From Planctomycetaceae bacterium (lineage in GTDB: Bacteria; Planctomycetota; Phycisphaerae; Sedimentisphaerales; UBA12454), in the NCBI GenBank assembly GCA_021371795.1, contig JAJFVK010000026.1:1-41653 (forward strand): a stretch of 41,653 nt of DNA, written 5' to 3'. This document shows positions 18,742 to 26,286 of the stretch, piece after piece. The notes below the pieces were generated by a model. The model saw only the letters and a list, made by a program, of their open reading frames with translations, had not been told where the DNA came from and did not search any database. The translations under genes and the position numbers were made by a program. The stretch's first letter is position 1. The number at the start of each line of letters is the position of its first letter.

Positions 18742-19989
18742 TTATATCCTACCGACAACGAGGCAGGCATTGTGACCGCCGAAGCCAAATGAATTGCTGG
18801 CGGCATAATTAATTTTTCTTTCCTTGGCAACCTTTGGTACGAAATCAAGTTTCGGATCGCACTTGGGGTCAACATTATCAAGATTAATCGTCGGATGAAT
18901 AATCGACTTTTCTATCATCTTGCAGGTTGCTACAAGCTCAATAGCGCCGCTTGCACCCAGCGAATGACCCATAAGACTCTTTGTAGAGCTAATGGAAAGC
19001 TTATAAGCGTGGTCGCCAAAAACTTTCTTTATCGCCGTTGTCTCGGCAATATCGTTAAGTTCAGTGCTTGTGCCGTGCGCGTTGATGTAATCAAATTTTT
19101 CCTTTGGAATACCGGCCTGCTTTATCGCCAGCTCAATAGCCCTTACCGCGCCTTCACCTTCCGGCGATGGTGCTGTAATATGATGAGCGTCGGCTGTGGC
19201 GCCGTAGCCGAGCAGCTCGGCGTAAATTTTTGCTCCGCGTTTTTTGGCGTGTTCATATTCTTCGAGAACAACCGCCCCCGCTCCTTCAGCTATGACAAAA
19301 CCATCACGACCGACATCAAACGGCCTTGACGCAGTTTCCGGTGAATCATTGCGTGTACTTAATGATTTCAACGCACAGAACGAACTAAGACCGACAGGAG
19401 ACACCGCAGCTTCAGAGCCGCCTGTAATAACAAGGTCACTTCTGCCATCGAGAATGTTATAAAACGCTTCGCCGATTGAATGTGATGCCGAAGCGCACGC
19501 AGTAACAACACAAAAATTCGCAGCCTTAAGACCGTACATCATTGAAATAGTACCGCACGCGGCGTTGCCCATAAGTTTGGGAACCGTAAACGGTGAAACC
19601 ATTCTCGGACCTTTGTTCAGCAATCTAATGTGCTGTGTTTCAATTTCCTGAATTCCGCCGATGCCGCTGCCGTAAATACAGCCGCAACGATCGAGGTCTG
19701 CTTTGGAAAAATCAATTCCACAATCTTTAACAGCCTGGATAGCAGATGCCACCGCAAGCTGACAGAACCTGTCCATCCGCTTGCCTTCACGATGTTCGAC
19801 AAACTGGGTGATGTCGAAATCTTTCGCTTCGCCGCCAAATCGCGTTGAAAACTGTGAAACATCAAAGCTGGTGATTGCCGCTACTCCGTTTTTACCCTTG
19901 ACTGCCGCATCGAAAAAAGTTTCGACAGAGACACCAATAGGTGTAACACAGCCCAGGCCCGTAATTACTACTCGCCGTTTGTTCATCAT
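18742..19989 (-). CDS. fabF: 3-oxoacyl-ACP synthase II
   Basis: The 415-residue condensing enzyme extends acyl-ACP with malonyl-ACP in fatty acid elongation. The Cys-His-His set is seen in VVTACASASHS (nucleophile Cys), NAHGTSTELND (His) and KSLMGHSLGASG (His), with the family opening RRVVITGLGCVTPIG. Two adjacent in-frame ATGs at 19989 and 19986 could serve as start. It is the last gene of the fatty-acid operon, 11 bases after acpP, the common acpP-fabF pairing. The length is normal. Confidence 0.96.
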   Translation of the reverse strand: MMNKRRVVITGLGCVTPIGVSVETFFDAAVKGKNGVAAITSFDVSQFSTRFGGEAKDFDITQFVEHREGKRMDRFCQLAVASAIQAVKDCGIDFSKADLDRCGCIYGSGIGGIQEIETQHIRLLNKGPRMVSPFTVPKLMGNAACGTISMMYGLKAANFCVVTACASASHSIGEAFYNILDGRSDLVITGGSEAAVSPVGLSSFCALKSLSTRNDSPETASRPFDVGRDGFVIAEGAGAVVLEEYEHAKKRGAKIYAELLGYGATADAHHITAPSPEGEGAVRAIELAIKQAGIPKEKFDYINAHGTSTELNDIAETTAIKKVFGDHAYKLSISSTKSLMGHSLGASGAIELVATCKMIEKSIIHPTINLDNVDPKCDPKLDFVPKVAKERKINYAASNSFGFGGHNACLVVGRI

Positions 19990-20000
19990 GTCTGCCTGAA

Positions 20001-20264
20001 CTATGCTTGTTCTTTTTGTTTTAATACGCTGACGATGTAATCGATAGCAGCGCCTACAGTCTGAATCTTCTCAGCTTCTTCGTCTGGAATGCTCGTATCG
20101 AACTCATCTTCAAACTCCATAACAAGCTCAACAGTATCCAGTGAGTCGGCGTTAAGGTCGTTGATGAACGAAGTCTCACGTGTAATCGTGGACTCTTCCG
20201 CACCCATCTGTTCTGCTACTATCTTGATAACCTTTTTTTCTATACTTTGGACGTCAATACTCAC
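20001..20264 (-). CDS. acpP: Acyl carrier protein
   Basis: The 87-residue acidic protein carries fatty acyl chains on a phosphopantetheine arm at Ser41 in the ADSLDTVEL motif. It starts with GTG (20264-20262) behind a good AAGGAG site; no ATG fits. It lies between fabG and fabF. The 147-base gap to fabG contains a candidate promoter of its own, which would allow the higher expression that ACP needs. The C-terminal KQKEQA tail is slightly longer than in E. coli. Confidence 0.96.
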
Positions 20265-20343
20265 TTTTCAACTCCTTGATTAAAAAAAATATCCTAAATT
20301 AACAATTCCTATATCTTTTATACCGTCTGATTATTAGGGCGGT

Positions 20344-20372
20344 AATATAACTGCCAACGCTGTTTCTTGCAA
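20344..20372 (-). promoter_or_regulatory. Putative internal promoter ahead of acpP
   Basis: On the minus strand, TTGCAA (20372-20367), a 17-base spacer and TATATT (20349-20344) lie about 80 bases before acpP. A small hairpin (AATACC/GGTATT) just after fabG precedes it. Confidence 0.45.
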
Positions 20373-20411
20373 TCATTTTTTTATTTAATACCAGCAGGTA
20401 TTTTAATCCCA

Positions 20412-21152
20412 TTACATCGCCATTCCGCCATCGACCTGCAAAACCTGTCCATTAACATAGCCGCTGTCGTCACTTGCAAGAAAAGCTACCGCTTTGGCAA
20501 CATCTTCCGGCGTACCCAATTTTTTAGCCGGGATGATGGCCATAGCCGCTTCCTTAACCATATCCGGCAAAATAGCAGTCATATCAGTCAAAATGAAGCC
20601 CGGAGCTACGCAATTGGCGGTAATGCCCTTCTTTGCGACTTCACGGACGACCGATTTTGTCATACCGATAAGGCCTGCCTTGCTTGCAGCATAATTCGCG
20701 CTGCCGGCCTGGCCCATAATGCCCGCGATCGAACTGATGCTGATAATTCTGCCGAATTTATTGCGAATCATCGGCCTTAATGCCGCCCTTGTCGCCATAA
20801 ACGCAGCACGCAGGTTTACGTTCATCAGAATATCATATTCGTCATCGCTCATCTGCATCATTAATCTATCTCTTGTAATACCTGCGTTATTTACAAGGAT
20901 ACCGATACCATTGTACTCTTTTGAAAGCTCTTCCATAACTTCGTTGAGCTTGTCTGTTTTCGTAATATCAACGCATTTGGTAATTACGCTGTAACCGGCT
21001 TCGCTGCAAACTTTTTCAAGTTCTTTAAGCTGTTCTGCGTTTAAATCCAGACCGGCAACAATTCTGCCCTGCTTGAGCAGTTCCATCACAATCGCCCTGC
21101 CTATTCCACGTGCGGCACCTGTTACAACCGCTAATCTTTTTTCTTCAGCCAT
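20412..21152 (-). CDS. fabG: 3-oxoacyl-ACP reductase
   Basis: The 246-residue short-chain dehydrogenase reduces 3-oxoacyl-ACP with NADPH. The nucleotide-binding motif TGAARGIGRAI is near residue 11, NNAG is near 90, and the catalytic Ser-Tyr-Lys appears as ISSIAG followed by YAASKAG. The ending GQVLQVDGGMAM is typical of FabG. It lies 3 bases after fabD with a CGGAG ribosome site, inside the operon plsX-fabH-fabD-fabG-acpP-fabF, which supports this role over other SDR functions. Confidence 0.95.
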   Translation of the reverse strand: MAEEKRLAVVTGAARGIGRAIVMELLKQGRIVAGLDLNAEQLKELEKVCSEAGYSVITKCVDITKTDKLNEVMEELSKEYNGIGILVNNAGITRDRLMMQMSDDEYDILMNVNLRAAFMATRAALRPMIRNKFGRIISISSIAGIMGQAGSANYAASKAGLIGMTKSVVREVAKKGITANCVAPGFILTDMTAILPDMVKEAAMAIIPAKKLGTPEDVAKAVAFLASDDSGYVNGQVLQVDGGMAM

Positions 21153-21155
21153 TAT

Positions 21156-22091
21156 TTACTCCGTTAATTTCTTCATACTTTCAACATCATTTACATTTAC
21201 AATATCCGTTCTCCTGCTGATTCTTCTCATCAATCCTGTAAGCACTTTGTTCGGTCCGATTTCGTAAAATTTCGTTACGCCATCGGCCAGAAGTTTTTCC
21301 ATACACTTCTGCCAAAGCACCGCGCCTGTCAACTGCTTTACAAGTCCCTGTGCAATCTCATCTTTATTCCAATAATATTCCGCGTTCACATTCGCGATTA
21401 CAGATATATCTTTCGGGTCGTTGATTTTGCATTGAGCAATCGCCTGTTTGAGTTCTTCAGCGGCAGGCTTCATCATTTCAGAATGAAACGCACCGGCAAC
21501 TTTCAGCTCAATCGCCTTCATTGCTCCGTATTTTTCAGCGAGTCCAAGCGCACGTTTGCACGCGTCAACCGCTCCGGTAATAACAATCTGTCCCGAGCAG
21601 TTAAAATTCGCACAGCTCAAAAGCTCGCCCTGCGATGCTTCCGCACAAAGCTTTCCGACAACGTCAGCTTCAAGGCCGATGATGCTTACCATCGAACCCT
21701 TTGTTGCGTCAGCCGCGGCCTGCATTGCCTGTCCGCGTTTCTGCACAAGTTTCAGGCCGTCTTCAAAACTGATTAAGCCTGCTGCATACAACGCTGTGTA
21801 CTCGCCGAGACTTAGCCCCGCGGTTACGTTCGCCGGTTTGAGCAGACCTTTCGATTTAAGAACTTCCAGAACTGCGACAGACATTGCGAAAATCGCCGGC
21901 TGGGAAATCGTCGTTGAGTTAAGTTTGTCTTCCGGCCCTTCAAAACAAATTTGCGAAAGAGCAGAGCCTGTGATTGCGTCCGCTTTGTCGAAAAATTCCT
22001 TAGCTATCGGTTCGGCAGCATAAAAGTCCTTGCCCATGCCTACCAACTGTGCGCCCTGACCCGGAAATATGTATGCAATTTTTTCTGACAT
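21156..22091 (-). CDS. fabD: Malonyl-CoA:ACP transacylase
   Basis: This enzyme loads malonyl groups onto ACP. It has the family opening KIAYIFPGQGAQ, the nucleophile motif GLSLGEYTAL with its Ser, and the conserved AGAFHSEMM with the catalytic His. I start it at ATG 22091 because a GGGAAG site precedes it and the family N-terminus follows at once. An in-frame TTG at 22112 would overlap the fabH stop. The product is 311 residues, normal for FabD. Confidence 0.95.
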   Translation of the reverse strand: MSEKIAYIFPGQGAQLVGMGKDFYAAEPIAKEFFDKADAITGSALSQICFEGPEDKLNSTTISQPAIFAMSVAVLEVLKSKGLLKPANVTAGLSLGEYTALYAAGLISFEDGLKLVQKRGQAMQAAADATKGSMVSIIGLEADVVGKLCAEASQGELLSCANFNCSGQIVITGAVDACKRALGLAEKYGAMKAIELKVAGAFHSEMMKPAAEELKQAIAQCKINDPKDISVIANVNAEYYWNKDEIAQGLVKQLTGAVLWQKCMEKLLADGVTKFYEIGPNKVLTGLMRRISRRTDIVNVNDVESMKKLTE

Positions 22092-22108
22092 CTTCTTCCC
22101 TGACAAAA

Positions 22109-23122
22109 TCAAAATTCAATAACGTTAGCGCCCCAAGTCAATCCACCGCCGAACGCGACAAGCAGAACAATATCGCCTTTTTTGATTCTGCCCTGCCGAA
22201 CGCTTTCATCAAGAGCGATAGGGATCGATGCTGCCGAGGTGTTTCCGTACTTATCTATATTTATAAAAACTTTTTCATCCGCAAGTTCAAGTCTCTTTGC
22301 GACAGACTCGATAATTCTTGCGTTCATCTGGTGTGGTATAAACATATCTATATCGCTGACCGACAGATTGCAGTCTTTCAGACAGGTTTCAACAGTTTCG
22401 ATAATTTTGCGAACTGCCATTTGATAAACTTCTCTGCCGTTTATTTTCATATAGACAGAATTTGGGTCTTCCAAAGGCTTGCTTACGGGGTTTCTGCTTC
22501 CGTACGCCGAGCAGTATAATGACTTCCAGCCCGAACCATCGGCACCGCAAGTACTGTAAAATATGCCTTTTGAACCGGCCGCATCACCTTTTTTAATAAT
22601 CGCAGCGCCTGCCCCATCGCCGAAGAGAATACAGCTTTTTCTGTCTTTGTAATCTGTAATTTTACTAAGTGTCTCGGCACCGATAACAAGTACGTTATCG
22701 TATTTGCCCGAAGTAACAAACTGCTGCGCGATGCTCAAGCCATAAACGAAACCGCTGCACGCAGCCGAAATATCGAACGCCCAGGCGTTTTTCGCTCCGA
22801 GCATATCCTGCACAAAACAGGCCGTCGACGGAAACACCATTTCAGGTGTAATCGTCGCGTTAACAATCATCTCGATATCTTCAGGTGCTATCTTCGCGCT
22901 TTCGATGGCTCTTTTCGCAGCTTCCGTTGCCAGCAGTGCTGTCGATTGATTTTCATTTGCTATATGACGGACTTTGATTCCTGTTCTGGTTGTAATCCAC
23001 TCATCGTTGGTTTCGACCATTTTTGTCAGATCATCATTCGTGAGCTGTTTTTCAGGTATGAACGAACCAGTGCCGGCAATCACAGCCCTAAACATGGAAT
23101 CAGATGTTTTGATAATGTTCAT
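22109..23122 (-). CDS. fabH: 3-oxoacyl-ACP synthase III
   Basis: FabH starts fatty acid synthesis by condensing acetyl-CoA (or a branched acyl-CoA) with malonyl-ACP. The Cys-His-Asn set is visible in DISAACSGFVYG, PHQMNARI and YGNTSAASIP. The start is uncertain among three in-frame ATGs (23137, 23122, 23095). AAGGG five bases ahead supports 23122, used here, which overlaps the 3' end of plsX. Alignment to the family opening (AVIAGTGSFIPE) fits 23095 as well. With 23122 the protein has 337 residues. Confidence 0.94.
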   Translation of the reverse strand: MNIIKTSDSMFRAVIAGTGSFIPEKQLTNDDLTKMVETNDEWITTRTGIKVRHIANENQSTALLATEAAKRAIESAKIAPEDIEMIVNATITPEMVFPSTACFVQDMLGAKNAWAFDISAACSGFVYGLSIAQQFVTSGKYDNVLVIGAETLSKITDYKDRKSCILFGDGAGAAIIKKGDAAGSKGIFYSTCGADGSGWKSLYCSAYGSRNPVSKPLEDPNSVYMKINGREVYQMAVRKIIETVETCLKDCNLSVSDIDMFIPHQMNARIIESVAKRLELADEKVFINIDKYGNTSAASIPIALDESVRQGRIKKGDIVLLVAFGGGLTWGANVIEF

Positions 23123-24134
23123 CGACGCCCTTAACATTTGTTGTTGCCAGGTATTCTTTTATTTTGTCATTGATTTGCATTTTGTGGAATTTACGTACCG
23201 CGTTAATCGCATTCTTTATAGTTCTTGCCTTGCTCGAACCGTGACAAATCATCACTGTACCATTCACGCCCAGCAGCGGTGCGCCGCCGTATTCGTGATA
23301 ATCGTACTTCTGATACATCTTCATCATCACAGGCCTGAACTTCAGAGCAAGAATCATAGATTGATTCATCAACTCGTGCTTGATAACCTTAAAGAGGCCG
23401 TCAACCAAACCTTCGGTAAGCTTCAAAACGACATTACCGACAAAACCATCGCATATCGCAACATCGCATTTGCCTTTGAAAATATCACGACCTTCGATGT
23501 TGCCGATAAAATTGATTTTTGAATCGCTTCTGATTAACTCTCTTGCCTTTTTGACTACTTCGCTGCCTTTAGCCTCTTCTTCACCTATACTCATAATGCC
23601 CACGCGAGGATTCTCGATTCCGAGAACGTGCCTGGAGTACATCGAAGCCATAATCGCGTACTGATAAAAATTCATCGGCTTGCAGGAAATATTCGCGCCA
23701 ACATCGCACATCGTTACCGGCCCTTCGAAAGTCGGAAAAACAACCGCAATGCCCGGCCTGTTCACGCCTTCAATGTTTCGCATTCGTAACTGACTTGCCG
23801 CAACGCACGCGCCGGTATTGCCGGCTGAAATAACCGCGTCCACTTCACCCTCTGCCGCCATTTTGTTCATAATAGCGATAGAACTGTTGCGTTTCTTTCG
23901 CAGAGCTTCAACTGGAGATTCGTCCATCCCGATAATTTCAGGTGCGTTGACGATTCGGATTACATCCGCGTATTTCTTGAGGTCTTTGGGGCCAATTTTT
24001 GATTCGATAACTTCAGCAGGTCCGAGCAGGATTAGACTATCACCTTTCTCGATATACTGTATCGATTCTATAACACCGGCCAGAATTTCATCCGGTGCAA
24101 AATCGCCGCCCATGGCGTCAATTGCGATTCGCAT
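23100..24134 (-). CDS. plsX: Phosphate acyltransferase PlsX
   Basis: The 344-residue enzyme makes acyl-phosphate from acyl-ACP, the first step of the PlsX/PlsY route to phospholipids. Family features are MRIAIDAMGGDFAPDEI at the start, SAGNTGACVAAS, GANISCKPMNF and DGFVGNVVLKLTEG. It starts 2 bases after the rpmF stop with an AGGAG ribosome site and overlaps fabH, so the operon is tightly coupled. The rpmF-plsX-fabH order is the standard bacterial one. Confidence 0.96.
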   Translation of the reverse strand: MRIAIDAMGGDFAPDEILAGVIESIQYIEKGDSLILLGPAEVIESKIGPKDLKKYADVIRIVNAPEIIGMDESPVEALRKKRNSSIAIMNKMAAEGEVDAVISAGNTGACVAASQLRMRNIEGVNRPGIAVVFPTFEGPVTMCDVGANISCKPMNFYQYAIMASMYSRHVLGIENPRVGIMSIGEEEAKGSEVVKKARELIRSDSKINFIGNIEGRDIFKGKCDVAICDGFVGNVVLKLTEGLVDGLFKVIKHELMNQSMILALKFRPVMMKMYQKYDYHEYGGAPLLGVNGTVMICHGSSKARTIKNAINAVRKFHKMQINDKIKEYLATTNVKGVDEHYQNI

Positions 24135-24136
24135 TG

Positions 24137-24328
24137 TTAGGCATTCTCCTCGGATTTTGCAAGTTTAAGTGTGATTTTTGAGTTCACATAACCGCAATTC
24201 GAGCAGGCTGCGTGCGGCAGTTTGGGACTGCTGCACTTTTTGCATACTGATAAGTTCACAGCTTTTAAAGCCTGATGACTTCTTCTTGAATGTGTCCGTG
24301 TTTTACTGGTTTTTTTTGCCGGTAACAT
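24137..24328 (-). CDS. rpmF: Ribosomal protein bL32
   Basis: The 63-residue basic protein is a component of the large ribosomal subunit. It has the family opening (MLPAKKTSKTRTHSRRSHQ, residues 1-19) and an intact zinc ribbon of four cysteines, Cys29, Cys32, Cys42 and Cys45, the zinc-binding form. The C-terminal acidic KSEENA tail is short. It is the first gene of the fatty acid operon, which links ribosome and membrane synthesis. Its leader contains an early terminator. Confidence 0.94.
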   Translation of the reverse strand: MLPAKKTSKTRTHSRRSHQALKAVNLSVCKKCSSPKLPHAACSNCGYVNSKITLKLAKSEENA

Positions 24329-24436
24329 CTATAAATTCTCCGGTTAAAGGTTTATTTATACAGTTTTGCCCGCAGGCAATTCCACAGTTTTTAGCTTTAT
24401 ATCCTAAGCTTTTATTTTACTACCATAAAGGTTATT

Positions 24437-24465
24437 AAAAAAAACAATCCCGCTCAAACGGGATT
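24437..24465 (-). terminator. Terminator within the rpmF leader
   Basis: Read on the minus strand, AATCCCG (24465-24459 side) pairs with CGGGATT (ending 24446) over a six-base loop and is followed by eight T residues (24444-24437). It lies about 110 bases ahead of rpmF, downstream of a strong promoter, with no other minus-strand gene upstream that it could serve. Confidence 0.75.
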
Positions 24466-24518
24466 CGGGCGTGTTCTCGCCATTTACAGGCCTGTTAGTG
24501 CCACATTGCTCAGAATTT
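24437..24518 (-). ncRNA. Predicted short leader RNA / attenuator upstream of rpmF
   Basis: A strong promoter (24525-24553) and a terminator (24437-24465) bound an RNA of about 80 bases that has no open frame of note. Within it are a second hairpin, GGCG/CGCC around 24468-24482, and a palindrome ACAGGCCTGT (24486-24495). The palindrome could pair in alternative ways. It is either an attenuator for the rpmF-fab operon or an independent small RNA. I recognise no Rfam family in it; the boundaries are inferred. Confidence 0.45.
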
Positions 24519-24524
24519 TCGCAT

Positions 24525-24553
24525 ATTAAAGTTTAGTTTGCCTCCATTGTCAA
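24525..24553 (-). promoter_or_regulatory. Strong promoter of the rpmF leader transcript
   Basis: On the minus strand, TTGACA (24553-24548), an exact 17-base spacer and TTTAAT (24530-24525) form a near-consensus housekeeping promoter, with predicted start near 24518. It points at the early terminator and then rpmF. Confidence 0.7.
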
Positions 24554-24735: not shown

Positions 24736-25323
24736 ATGGTGAATTTATTTATAAATACCCTAATTAAAATGTTCTTTCTGCTAACACCATTTTTCGTAAT
24801 GTCGATGGTGTTATCGATGACACGGACACTATCGGCACATGCCCGCAGAACTATAGTCATACGCACAATTCTGGCAATATTGGTTATAGCTTTCATACTG
24901 TTTTATTTCGGGAATATCATATTCAAGCTCCTCGGTATCACTCTCCAGTCATTTCAAATTGGAGCAGGCGCCCTGCTGTTTCTGTCTGCGGTATCGCTTG
25001 TTCAAACCCATCAACCGCCGGCCGCATCTGAAGCGGAAGACATATCCGTTGTGCCTCTGGCCATACCGCTTACAATCGGGCCGGGAACAATTGGAACATT
25101 GCTTGTTATGGGTACGGAAATCAGCGGTACTGCAAAAATTGTCGCCAGTTCAGCTTTATTCTGTGCCATTATGCTCGTAGGTTTTATCCTTTTGGGGGCA
25201 TCACAACTGGAAAAAATTCTCGGCTCAAAAGGAATTTCAGTTCTTACGAAACTGACAGGTCTGGTACTTTCAGCACTGGCGGCACAAATCGTATTCACAG
25301 GGATAAATACCTTCGGCCGTTAA
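24736..25323 (+). CDS. MarC-family integral membrane protein
   Basis: The 195-residue protein has six predicted membrane helices and the family pattern: FFLLTPFFVMSM early, then the loop PLAIPLTIGPGTIGTLLV, the most conserved segment (about 107-124). The family was named from the E. coli mar locus, but a role in antibiotic resistance was not upheld, and the true function remains unknown. AGGA lies before the ATG. It is transcribed divergently from the rpmF operon across 407 bases, most of which hold the rpmF leader. The first conserved helix pair has MVNLFINTLIKMFF, slightly shorter than usual. Confidence 0.88.
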   Translation: MVNLFINTLIKMFFLLTPFFVMSMVLSMTRTLSAHARRTIVIRTILAILVIAFILFYFGNIIFKLLGITLQSFQIGAGALLFLSAVSLVQTHQPPAASEAEDISVVPLAIPLTIGPGTIGTLLVMGTEISGTAKIVASSALFCAIMLVGFILLGASQLEKILGSKGISVLTKLTGLVLSALAAQIVFTGINTFGR

Positions 25324-25434
25324 ACTTCAACACGCAAACACAACCAATCTTATCCTTATATCTCAAAATAAGGTATTGGATTATTGAATTTTCCTATTGA
25401 AAGATGGACAAAAATAGGTTATCTTTCGCTGTTT

Positions 25435-26286
25435 ATGGCAAGAAATCCCAGACAAGCTGCGCTTTACGAAGTTATAAACAGGAACAGGTTTAAGGATGCA
25501 CAGCAAAAGGCACTGGATCGAATCGGAGTAAAACCGACCGTTCAGCCGCCCGCGCAAGTCGTTGAACAACAAAAGGTTGCGGAAGAACCTGTGAAAATTG
25601 AACCTGTTGAAATCAAGCCTGTTCAGCTTGAGCCTGTAGTAACTGAAGCCGTTAAAGAAGTTGCTAAAGAACCTGTTAAAGCGGAAACTATAACAAAACC
25701 CGCCAGACAAGAAGCCGTTTGGACCGGCAGACAGAAGCCTGTGCGGATATATCCCGACAGGATTGAGTTATGTCTTTCGTGGCAGATAGCGGGATTGAGT
25801 GTATTGGCTTTAGCGGCGATTTTTTTGGTCTTTTTCAGATTGGGCCGGATGAGTACATCTGCCAAACCTGAAGAAAAGCAGCCGCCGGCGGCAATCAGGC
25901 TTGACGATATTAAGCCGACGGTTCCGGTGGTGGTTAATACCGCCCCTGCCGTTGCTGAAGCGAAAACGCCAAAATTAGTCGAGCCGATGGGCGATAACGC
26001 GATTGTGATTGCAAGCTATAATGTGCAGTCGCATCTGGAGCCGGTTAAAGCGTATTTTGCTCAATATGGAATAGCGACCGAAATTATTAAATCGGACCAG
26101 AACCGCAGTTATCTTTTGGTAACGCAGAATCGCTATGACAGTATCAACAAAGCCGGCACTGATGGCTATGAAATGAAAAAGAAAATTATGTCCGTTGGTG
26201 CGAATTATAAATCGCCGCCAGGTTCGGGACTTGAGTCTTTTGGCCCCAAGCCGTTCCAGGACGTATACGGAATGAAAGTTAAATAG
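25435..26286 (+). CDS. SPOR-like single-pass membrane protein
   Basis: The start ATG 25435 is the only ATG in frame that gives the whole protein; a TTG lies 17 codons upstream. The 283-residue product has a cytoplasmic N-terminus beginning ARNPRQAALYEVINRNR. A Pro/Val/Glu-rich linker (about 35-90) follows with repeated EPV or KPV words (EPVKIEPVEIKPVQLEPV), then a membrane helix (about 114-136). The outer C-terminal domain (about 205-283) looks like SPOR: AIVIASYNVQSHLEPVKAYF, then YLLVTQNRY. SPOR domains bind denuded peptidoglycan at division sites. The layout fits a division or wall-remodelling protein; family assignment is tentative. It is followed by an AT-rich repeat tract and the small basic protein gene. 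Confidence 0.6.
   Translation: MARNPRQAALYEVINRNRFKDAQQKALDRIGVKPTVQPPAQVVEQQKVAEEPVKIEPVEIKPVQLEPVVTEAVKEVAKEPVKAETITKPARQEAVWTGRQKPVRIYPDRIELCLSWQIAGLSVLALAAIFLVFFRLGRMSTSAKPEEKQPPAAIRLDDIKPTVPVVVNTAPAVAEAKTPKLVEPMGDNAIVIASYNVQSHLEPVKAYFAQYGIATEIIKSDQNRSYLLVTQNRYDSINKAGTDGYEMKKKIMSVGANYKSPPGSGLESFGPKPFQDVYGMKVK

Follow-up and report, generated by a model that had tools for sequence, protein, structure and literature searches.

Upstream of rpmF, which we take from sequence knowledge to be the gene of ribosomal protein L32, the minus strand of the window (the whole stretch of DNA analysed, 41,653 nucleotides) carries a promoter, a GC hairpin and eight T residues, all of them where an initial annotation of this DNA had placed them. 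The locus thereby raises the question whether this arrangement attenuates the genes that follow or delimits a separate small RNA. These genes have the order rpmF-plsX-fabH-fabD-fabG-acpP-fabF on the minus strand (the last six names likewise presumed from knowledge of such proteins). In this operon one ribosomal protein is combined with six genes for making phospholipids and fatty acids, and a terminator in front of the whole set would be one point at which ribosome and membrane supply are controlled together.

Materials and Methods

Close relatives of plsX were found encoded in planctomycete MAGs with labels including Sedimentisphaerales and Anaerohalosphaeraceae. plsX was present in 58 of the 59 genomes searched (none in G005) and in 12 of 13 in the window's own family, f1. 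The regions upstream of rpmF were read in 57 genomes; no rpmF was found in one plsX-positive genome (locus L070). Leaders were anchored on TTGAC, so that TTGAC is present in 57/57 by construction, and the anchor was picked by hand where several TTGAC occurred. For the motif counts in family f6, 29 leaders were used of the 35 f6 genomes with rpmF; left out were L091, L092 and L098, which have no usable TTGAC, and three without a locus.

Terminators were scanned for with a lax rule and with a strict rule, the latter demanding a stem energy of -8 or lower and six T in seven and being set after the relatives had been seen. The lax scan used wrong anchors for L060, L061, L064 and L067, the strict scan the right ones. 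Promoter-like sites were scanned for with a consensus and with a matrix, the matrix scan being reported for the four top-scoring sites of each species.

Organization of the locus

The features of the locus are collected in Table 1. The rpmF start codon lies at 24328 on the minus strand, preceded by GGAG at 24341-24338, and the T-run is separated from GGAG by 96 bases and from rpmF by 108 gene-free bases, more than in most relatives. The initial annotation had noted that no gene of the same strand lies between promoter and rpmF, in agreement with the window's ORF list, which holds no minus-strand ORF of at least 40 amino acids there. The gene upstream of rpmF (24736-25323), presumably encoding a MarC-like membrane protein, is divergently oriented, so that no upstream operon reads into rpmF.

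Table 1. Features of the rpmF leader and operon, in positions of the window.
Feature	Position	Strand	Basis or remark
-35 element TTGACA of promoter P1	24548..24553	-	sequence; order-wide pattern
-10 region of P1: TTTAAT, 17-base spacing (24530-24525), or TAATAT, 19-base spacing (24528-24523)	24523..24530	-	sequence; matrix from relatives
Hairpin H1, GGC-8-GCC	24489..24502	-	fold; stem same in L003; overlaps palindrome 24495-24486
Hairpin H2, GGCG-6-CGCC	24468..24481	-	fold; GGCG and CGCC invariant in 8 aligned leaders
Putative intrinsic terminator: stem of 8 pairs, loop of 4 bases, then G and eight T	24437..24465	-	terminator scans; stem comparison
rpmF (presumed ribosomal protein L32)	24137..24328	-	first gene past the terminator
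plsX, fabH, fabD, fabG, acpP, fabF (presumed)	18742..24134	-	same strand, after rpmF

Two further observations concern the surroundings of rpmF. The segment between T-run and rpmF (24345-24436) holds about 70 bases extra compared with the nearest relative, L003, including a TTGCC-TGCG-GGCAA hairpin, and a second copy of the sequence from terminator to rpmF was not found in its own genome. In L005, L007 and L009 a counterpart of the window gene 25384-26286 seems to occupy the place of the MarC-like gene beside rpmF.

The promoter of rpmF

The pattern CTTGAC[AT]-N16..18-TA[TA] was found in 49 of the 57 rpmF upstream regions (0.24 in shuffles), and a looser promoter pattern in 54 of them (6.6 in shuffles), the usual form in the relatives being TTGACA-N17-TATTTA or TATTAA. 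The window misses both patterns owing to its -10, and in this part it is two bases shorter than its nearest relative. The initial annotation had described P1 as a near-consensus TTGACA-N17-TTTAAT promoter; the -35 element and the spacing are indeed as read directly on the minus strand, but the -10 is weaker than claimed, since TTTAAT is without the usual A at position 2 (the consensus scan demands that A, so that the site is unlisted) and the best -10 according to the matrix built from relatives is TAATAT at 19 bases.

Using a matrix from the other species, P1 of the window scored 16.0 as compared to a shuffle maximum of 11.1, and under leave-one-out matrices P1 was the top site of all 12 f1 species and outscored every one of 60 shuffles. 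No second promoter-like site above shuffles was seen among the best four sites per species in these 12. Between terminator and rpmF no site in f1 exceeded the shuffles either, the top one scoring 5.9 in L011 (shuffle maximum 12.8), and in the window's 108 bases past the T-run the best score was only -2.0. By the consensus scan promoter-like sites over 9 kb were no commoner than in shuffles (19 vs. 16.4). From these sequence comparisons P1 is the conserved and the only visible promoter of the rpmF operon.

The leaders of family f6 (e.g., L053, L071, L075, L090) contain TTTAC[GT]-N14-TGnTA about 50 bases downstream of P1, at constant spacing, in 27 of 29 cases (0.095 in shuffles). The motif is absent from all f1 leaders and resembles a promoter of the extended -10 kind, which would be the second one for rpmF. 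The reading of a motif as an RNA shared with family f6 was rejected, the motif being promoter-like.

The predicted terminator and its distribution

On the minus strand the terminator hairpin AATCCCGTTTGAGCGGGATT (24465-24446) is followed by G and then by eight T (24444-24437). Strict terminators between promoter and rpmF were found in nine of the 12 f1 leaders, against 1.92 expected from shuffles, an excess with a P of about 2e-6 that treats species as independent and is for this reason overstated. Two of the other leaders, L007 and L010, have a terminator by the lax rule only, and L022 by neither rule. Outside f1, strict terminators occurred in the single f2 leader (0.23 expected) and in 5/13 f6 leaders (2.55 expected), and were absent from the leaders of f3 (0/5), f5 (0/1), f4 (0/12) and f7 (0/13). 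Family f4 and f7 leaders, with 0/25 strict terminators together, are also shorter, and the comparison with shuffles is therefore the fairer control.

The leader terminator recurs at the same place within f1, and does not do so in f3, f4, f5 and f7. Missing conservation of the stem upstream of rpmF in relatives had been named beforehand as one result that would refute the idea; the idea withstood this test within f1 but not across the order. Because the terminator sequences differ between species groups, it is the position that has been kept and not one inherited sequence. In seven of the nine strict f1 cases only 31-48 bases lie between the end of the stem and the rpmF start codon, too few to accommodate another promoter, and expression of the operon would therefore need read-through.

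The lax scan did not discriminate, since most long leaders and likewise their shuffles yielded hairpins, and in the window 22 of 100 shuffles were equally good; terminator-like sites over 9 kb numbered 16 as compared to 8.6 in shuffles. Among the other 32 window genes tested, with gene starts set by hand, four have a strict terminator at most 250 bases upstream; in three of these cases it follows a gene on the same strand or a tRNA, where a terminator is expected. The weight of the predicted terminator is in its conservation; the window alone would be a weak case.

Structure of the leader and candidate regulators

The whole leader of the window does not fold better than shuffled sequence (z -0.81; 36 of the 200 shuffles were as good). 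The comparison with L003 is more specific to the stems: H1, H2 and terminator together have 30 stem bases, none of them changed, versus 13 of 58 other bases (Fisher P 0.003), and of the unpaired bases from H1 to terminator 9 of 27 differ in the same species pair (P 0.0005). In five other species (L005-L009) H1, H2 and a longer terminator can be aligned with 94.4% of cells paired; covariation in this five-sequence alignment was not above shuffles.

A model built from these five sequences (R1) did not bear out one RNA family for all leaders, as it matches L011 well (E 0.0005), L010 and L003 weakly (E 0.21 and 1, respectively) and the leader of the window not at all. Besides rpmF leaders, R1 matched one such leader on its opposite strand (E 0.014), and its remaining matches had E of about 0.1 or more. 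Reuse of the element at other genes was likewise rejected using the H2 pattern, which was found at five rpmF sites (0-1 mismatch) and at three sites elsewhere (two mismatches), as compared to three for reversed-pattern controls. Searches of the window and 20 related loci against Rfam gave no match at gathering score, and below this threshold chance-level matches alone (E 0.34 or more). In two rpmF leaders, L022 (1118-1306) and L011 (2721-2992), a direct repeat of about 30-35 bases was observed, different in each.

The initial annotation had proposed that the palindrome ACAGGCCTGT (24495-24486) could provide an alternative fold, a proposal that we do not follow, given that the leaders of L003 and L004, the two nearest relatives, lack the palindrome. 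No conserved antiterminator or alternative pairing was noticed when the folds of the window leader and its relatives were inspected by eye, the leaders of L013 and L021 in this set having been cut at a wrong TTGAC anchor. For rRNA mimicry, the best matches in the leader were mostly no better than those of shuffled queries, the lowest being 8 and 9 of 100. Such mimicry is not obligatory for the binding of a ribosomal protein to its own leader. A leader peptide was rejected, since the 9-codon ORF at 24483-24454, which overlaps H2 and terminator, has its ATG in just three of the 12 f1 leaders (L002, L003 and L010). Antitermination via boxA was rejected as well: the 16S leader of the same genome has GCTCTTTGACAAGTTAACAG, which was not seen in the window's rpmF leader, and boxA-like letters in the rpmF leaders of relatives are within the 3' arm of the terminator, too late to act. 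Ahead of the 16S genes of the order a boxA-like G[TC]TCTTT...AAGTTAACAG is found in most cases (L105, L101-L104, L108), with GCTCTTTGACAAGTTAACAG as the version of the window's own genome.

Interpretation of the element

In our view the element probably serves the rpmF-plsX-fab operon as a leader terminator (attenuator). P1 would drive the operon, and its transcript would form two small hairpins and then the intrinsic terminator, where a share of the polymerases would halt after about 80 bases while the remainder would continue into rpmF and the fatty-acid genes. That termination occurs and is partial we infer from the sequences. More tentatively, read-through may be regulated by something that binds the leader, with L32 as the first candidate purely for its analogy to the ribosomal-protein leaders in parts of a published account (PMC7247131). 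A fixed leaky terminator that only sets the level is just as possible. Counted against attenuation are the unremarkable fold of the whole leader, the indiscriminate lax scan and the late choice of the strict rule, the three f1 leaders that fail this rule, the lack of covariation above shuffles in the five-sequence alignment, the failure of R1 to match the window, the lack of a conserved antiterminator in the folds inspected, and the other families of the order, which have the promoter without a strict terminator. A rather improbable extension would be a lineage-specific regulatory RNA that serves L32 and the fab genes alone as their attenuator, the read-through into this ribosome and membrane operon being set by L32 itself or else by a lipid or growth signal.

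The initial annotation had left the choice between an attenuator and a small RNA, and it is the former that the conserved, sole visible promoter and the nine terminators in 12 f1 leaders suggest. Were the element a separate small RNA, some 80 bases long, P1 and the terminator would be its own signals, which form a complete unit for such an RNA, and rpmF would be transcribed from another promoter downstream, for which the 108 bases between T-run and rpmF in the window offer more space than in most relatives. These bases, however, hold nothing promoter-like next to the score of P1, the relatives have no room for a promoter past the terminator, and the DNA has neither a second copy in its own genome nor an Rfam match. 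We regard this reading as unlikely because the rpmF of most relatives would be left promoterless. A short terminated RNA is expected as a by-product even if the element is an attenuator.

That the hairpin is terminator-like by chance, or a relic without effect, would agree with the window's own weak statistics (site counts, whole fold and lax scan), yet it recurs in the family at the same position with different sequences and its stems are unchanged between the window and the nearest relative, which makes this quite unlikely. Still more doubtful is the reading of hairpin and T-run as a processing site or a U-rich stretch enhancing translation: the T-run is near the Shine-Dalgarno sequence in relatives and some hairpins are long, but intrinsic terminators usually take the form of a stable hairpin directly before six to eight T, and in the window the T-run is far from GGAG. 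In summary, we favour an attenuator, or else a leaky terminator of fixed strength, over a separate small RNA because of the conserved promoter, the f1 terminators near the start codon and the unchanged stems.

Comparison with known systems

The action of L10(L12)4 on B. subtilis rplJL is reportedly an example of attenuation in a ribosomal-protein leader. Terminators in the leaders of ribosomal-protein and translation operons are, according to the parts of the literature considered, a known kind of element (PMC2965389, PMC7247131). The ribosomal-protein leaders (r-leaders) described in PMC7247131 resemble the present case in that the leader of a ribosomal-protein gene is structured, and in the sections considered a conditional terminator is among their known mechanisms. 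They differ in that the part of the table considered contains no leader bound by L32, rpmF appearing there only under an L31 leader in Corynebacteriaceae; in the rpmF leader described here rRNA mimicry was looked for and not found. The rimP-leader and the rpsL-leader (PMC2965389) likewise feature a terminator close to the leading gene of an operon related to the ribosome, the rimP-leader being without an obvious larger sensor in the parts of that source considered, and rpmF, L32 and planctomycetes have no occurrence in the text on these leaders.

In the E. coli yceD-rpmF-plsX-fab cluster rpmF is similarly co-transcribed with plsX and fab genes, but from several promoters, and the portion of the source considered mentions no leader terminator (PMC3896788). 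Neither an L32 leader nor a leader terminator before rpmF was found in Rfam or in the portion of the literature searched, and one targeted literature search found no papers on transcript ends in this group. The probable attenuation of this operon in a family of uncultured planctomycetes would represent an ordinary type of control, at a gene for which no description of it was found.
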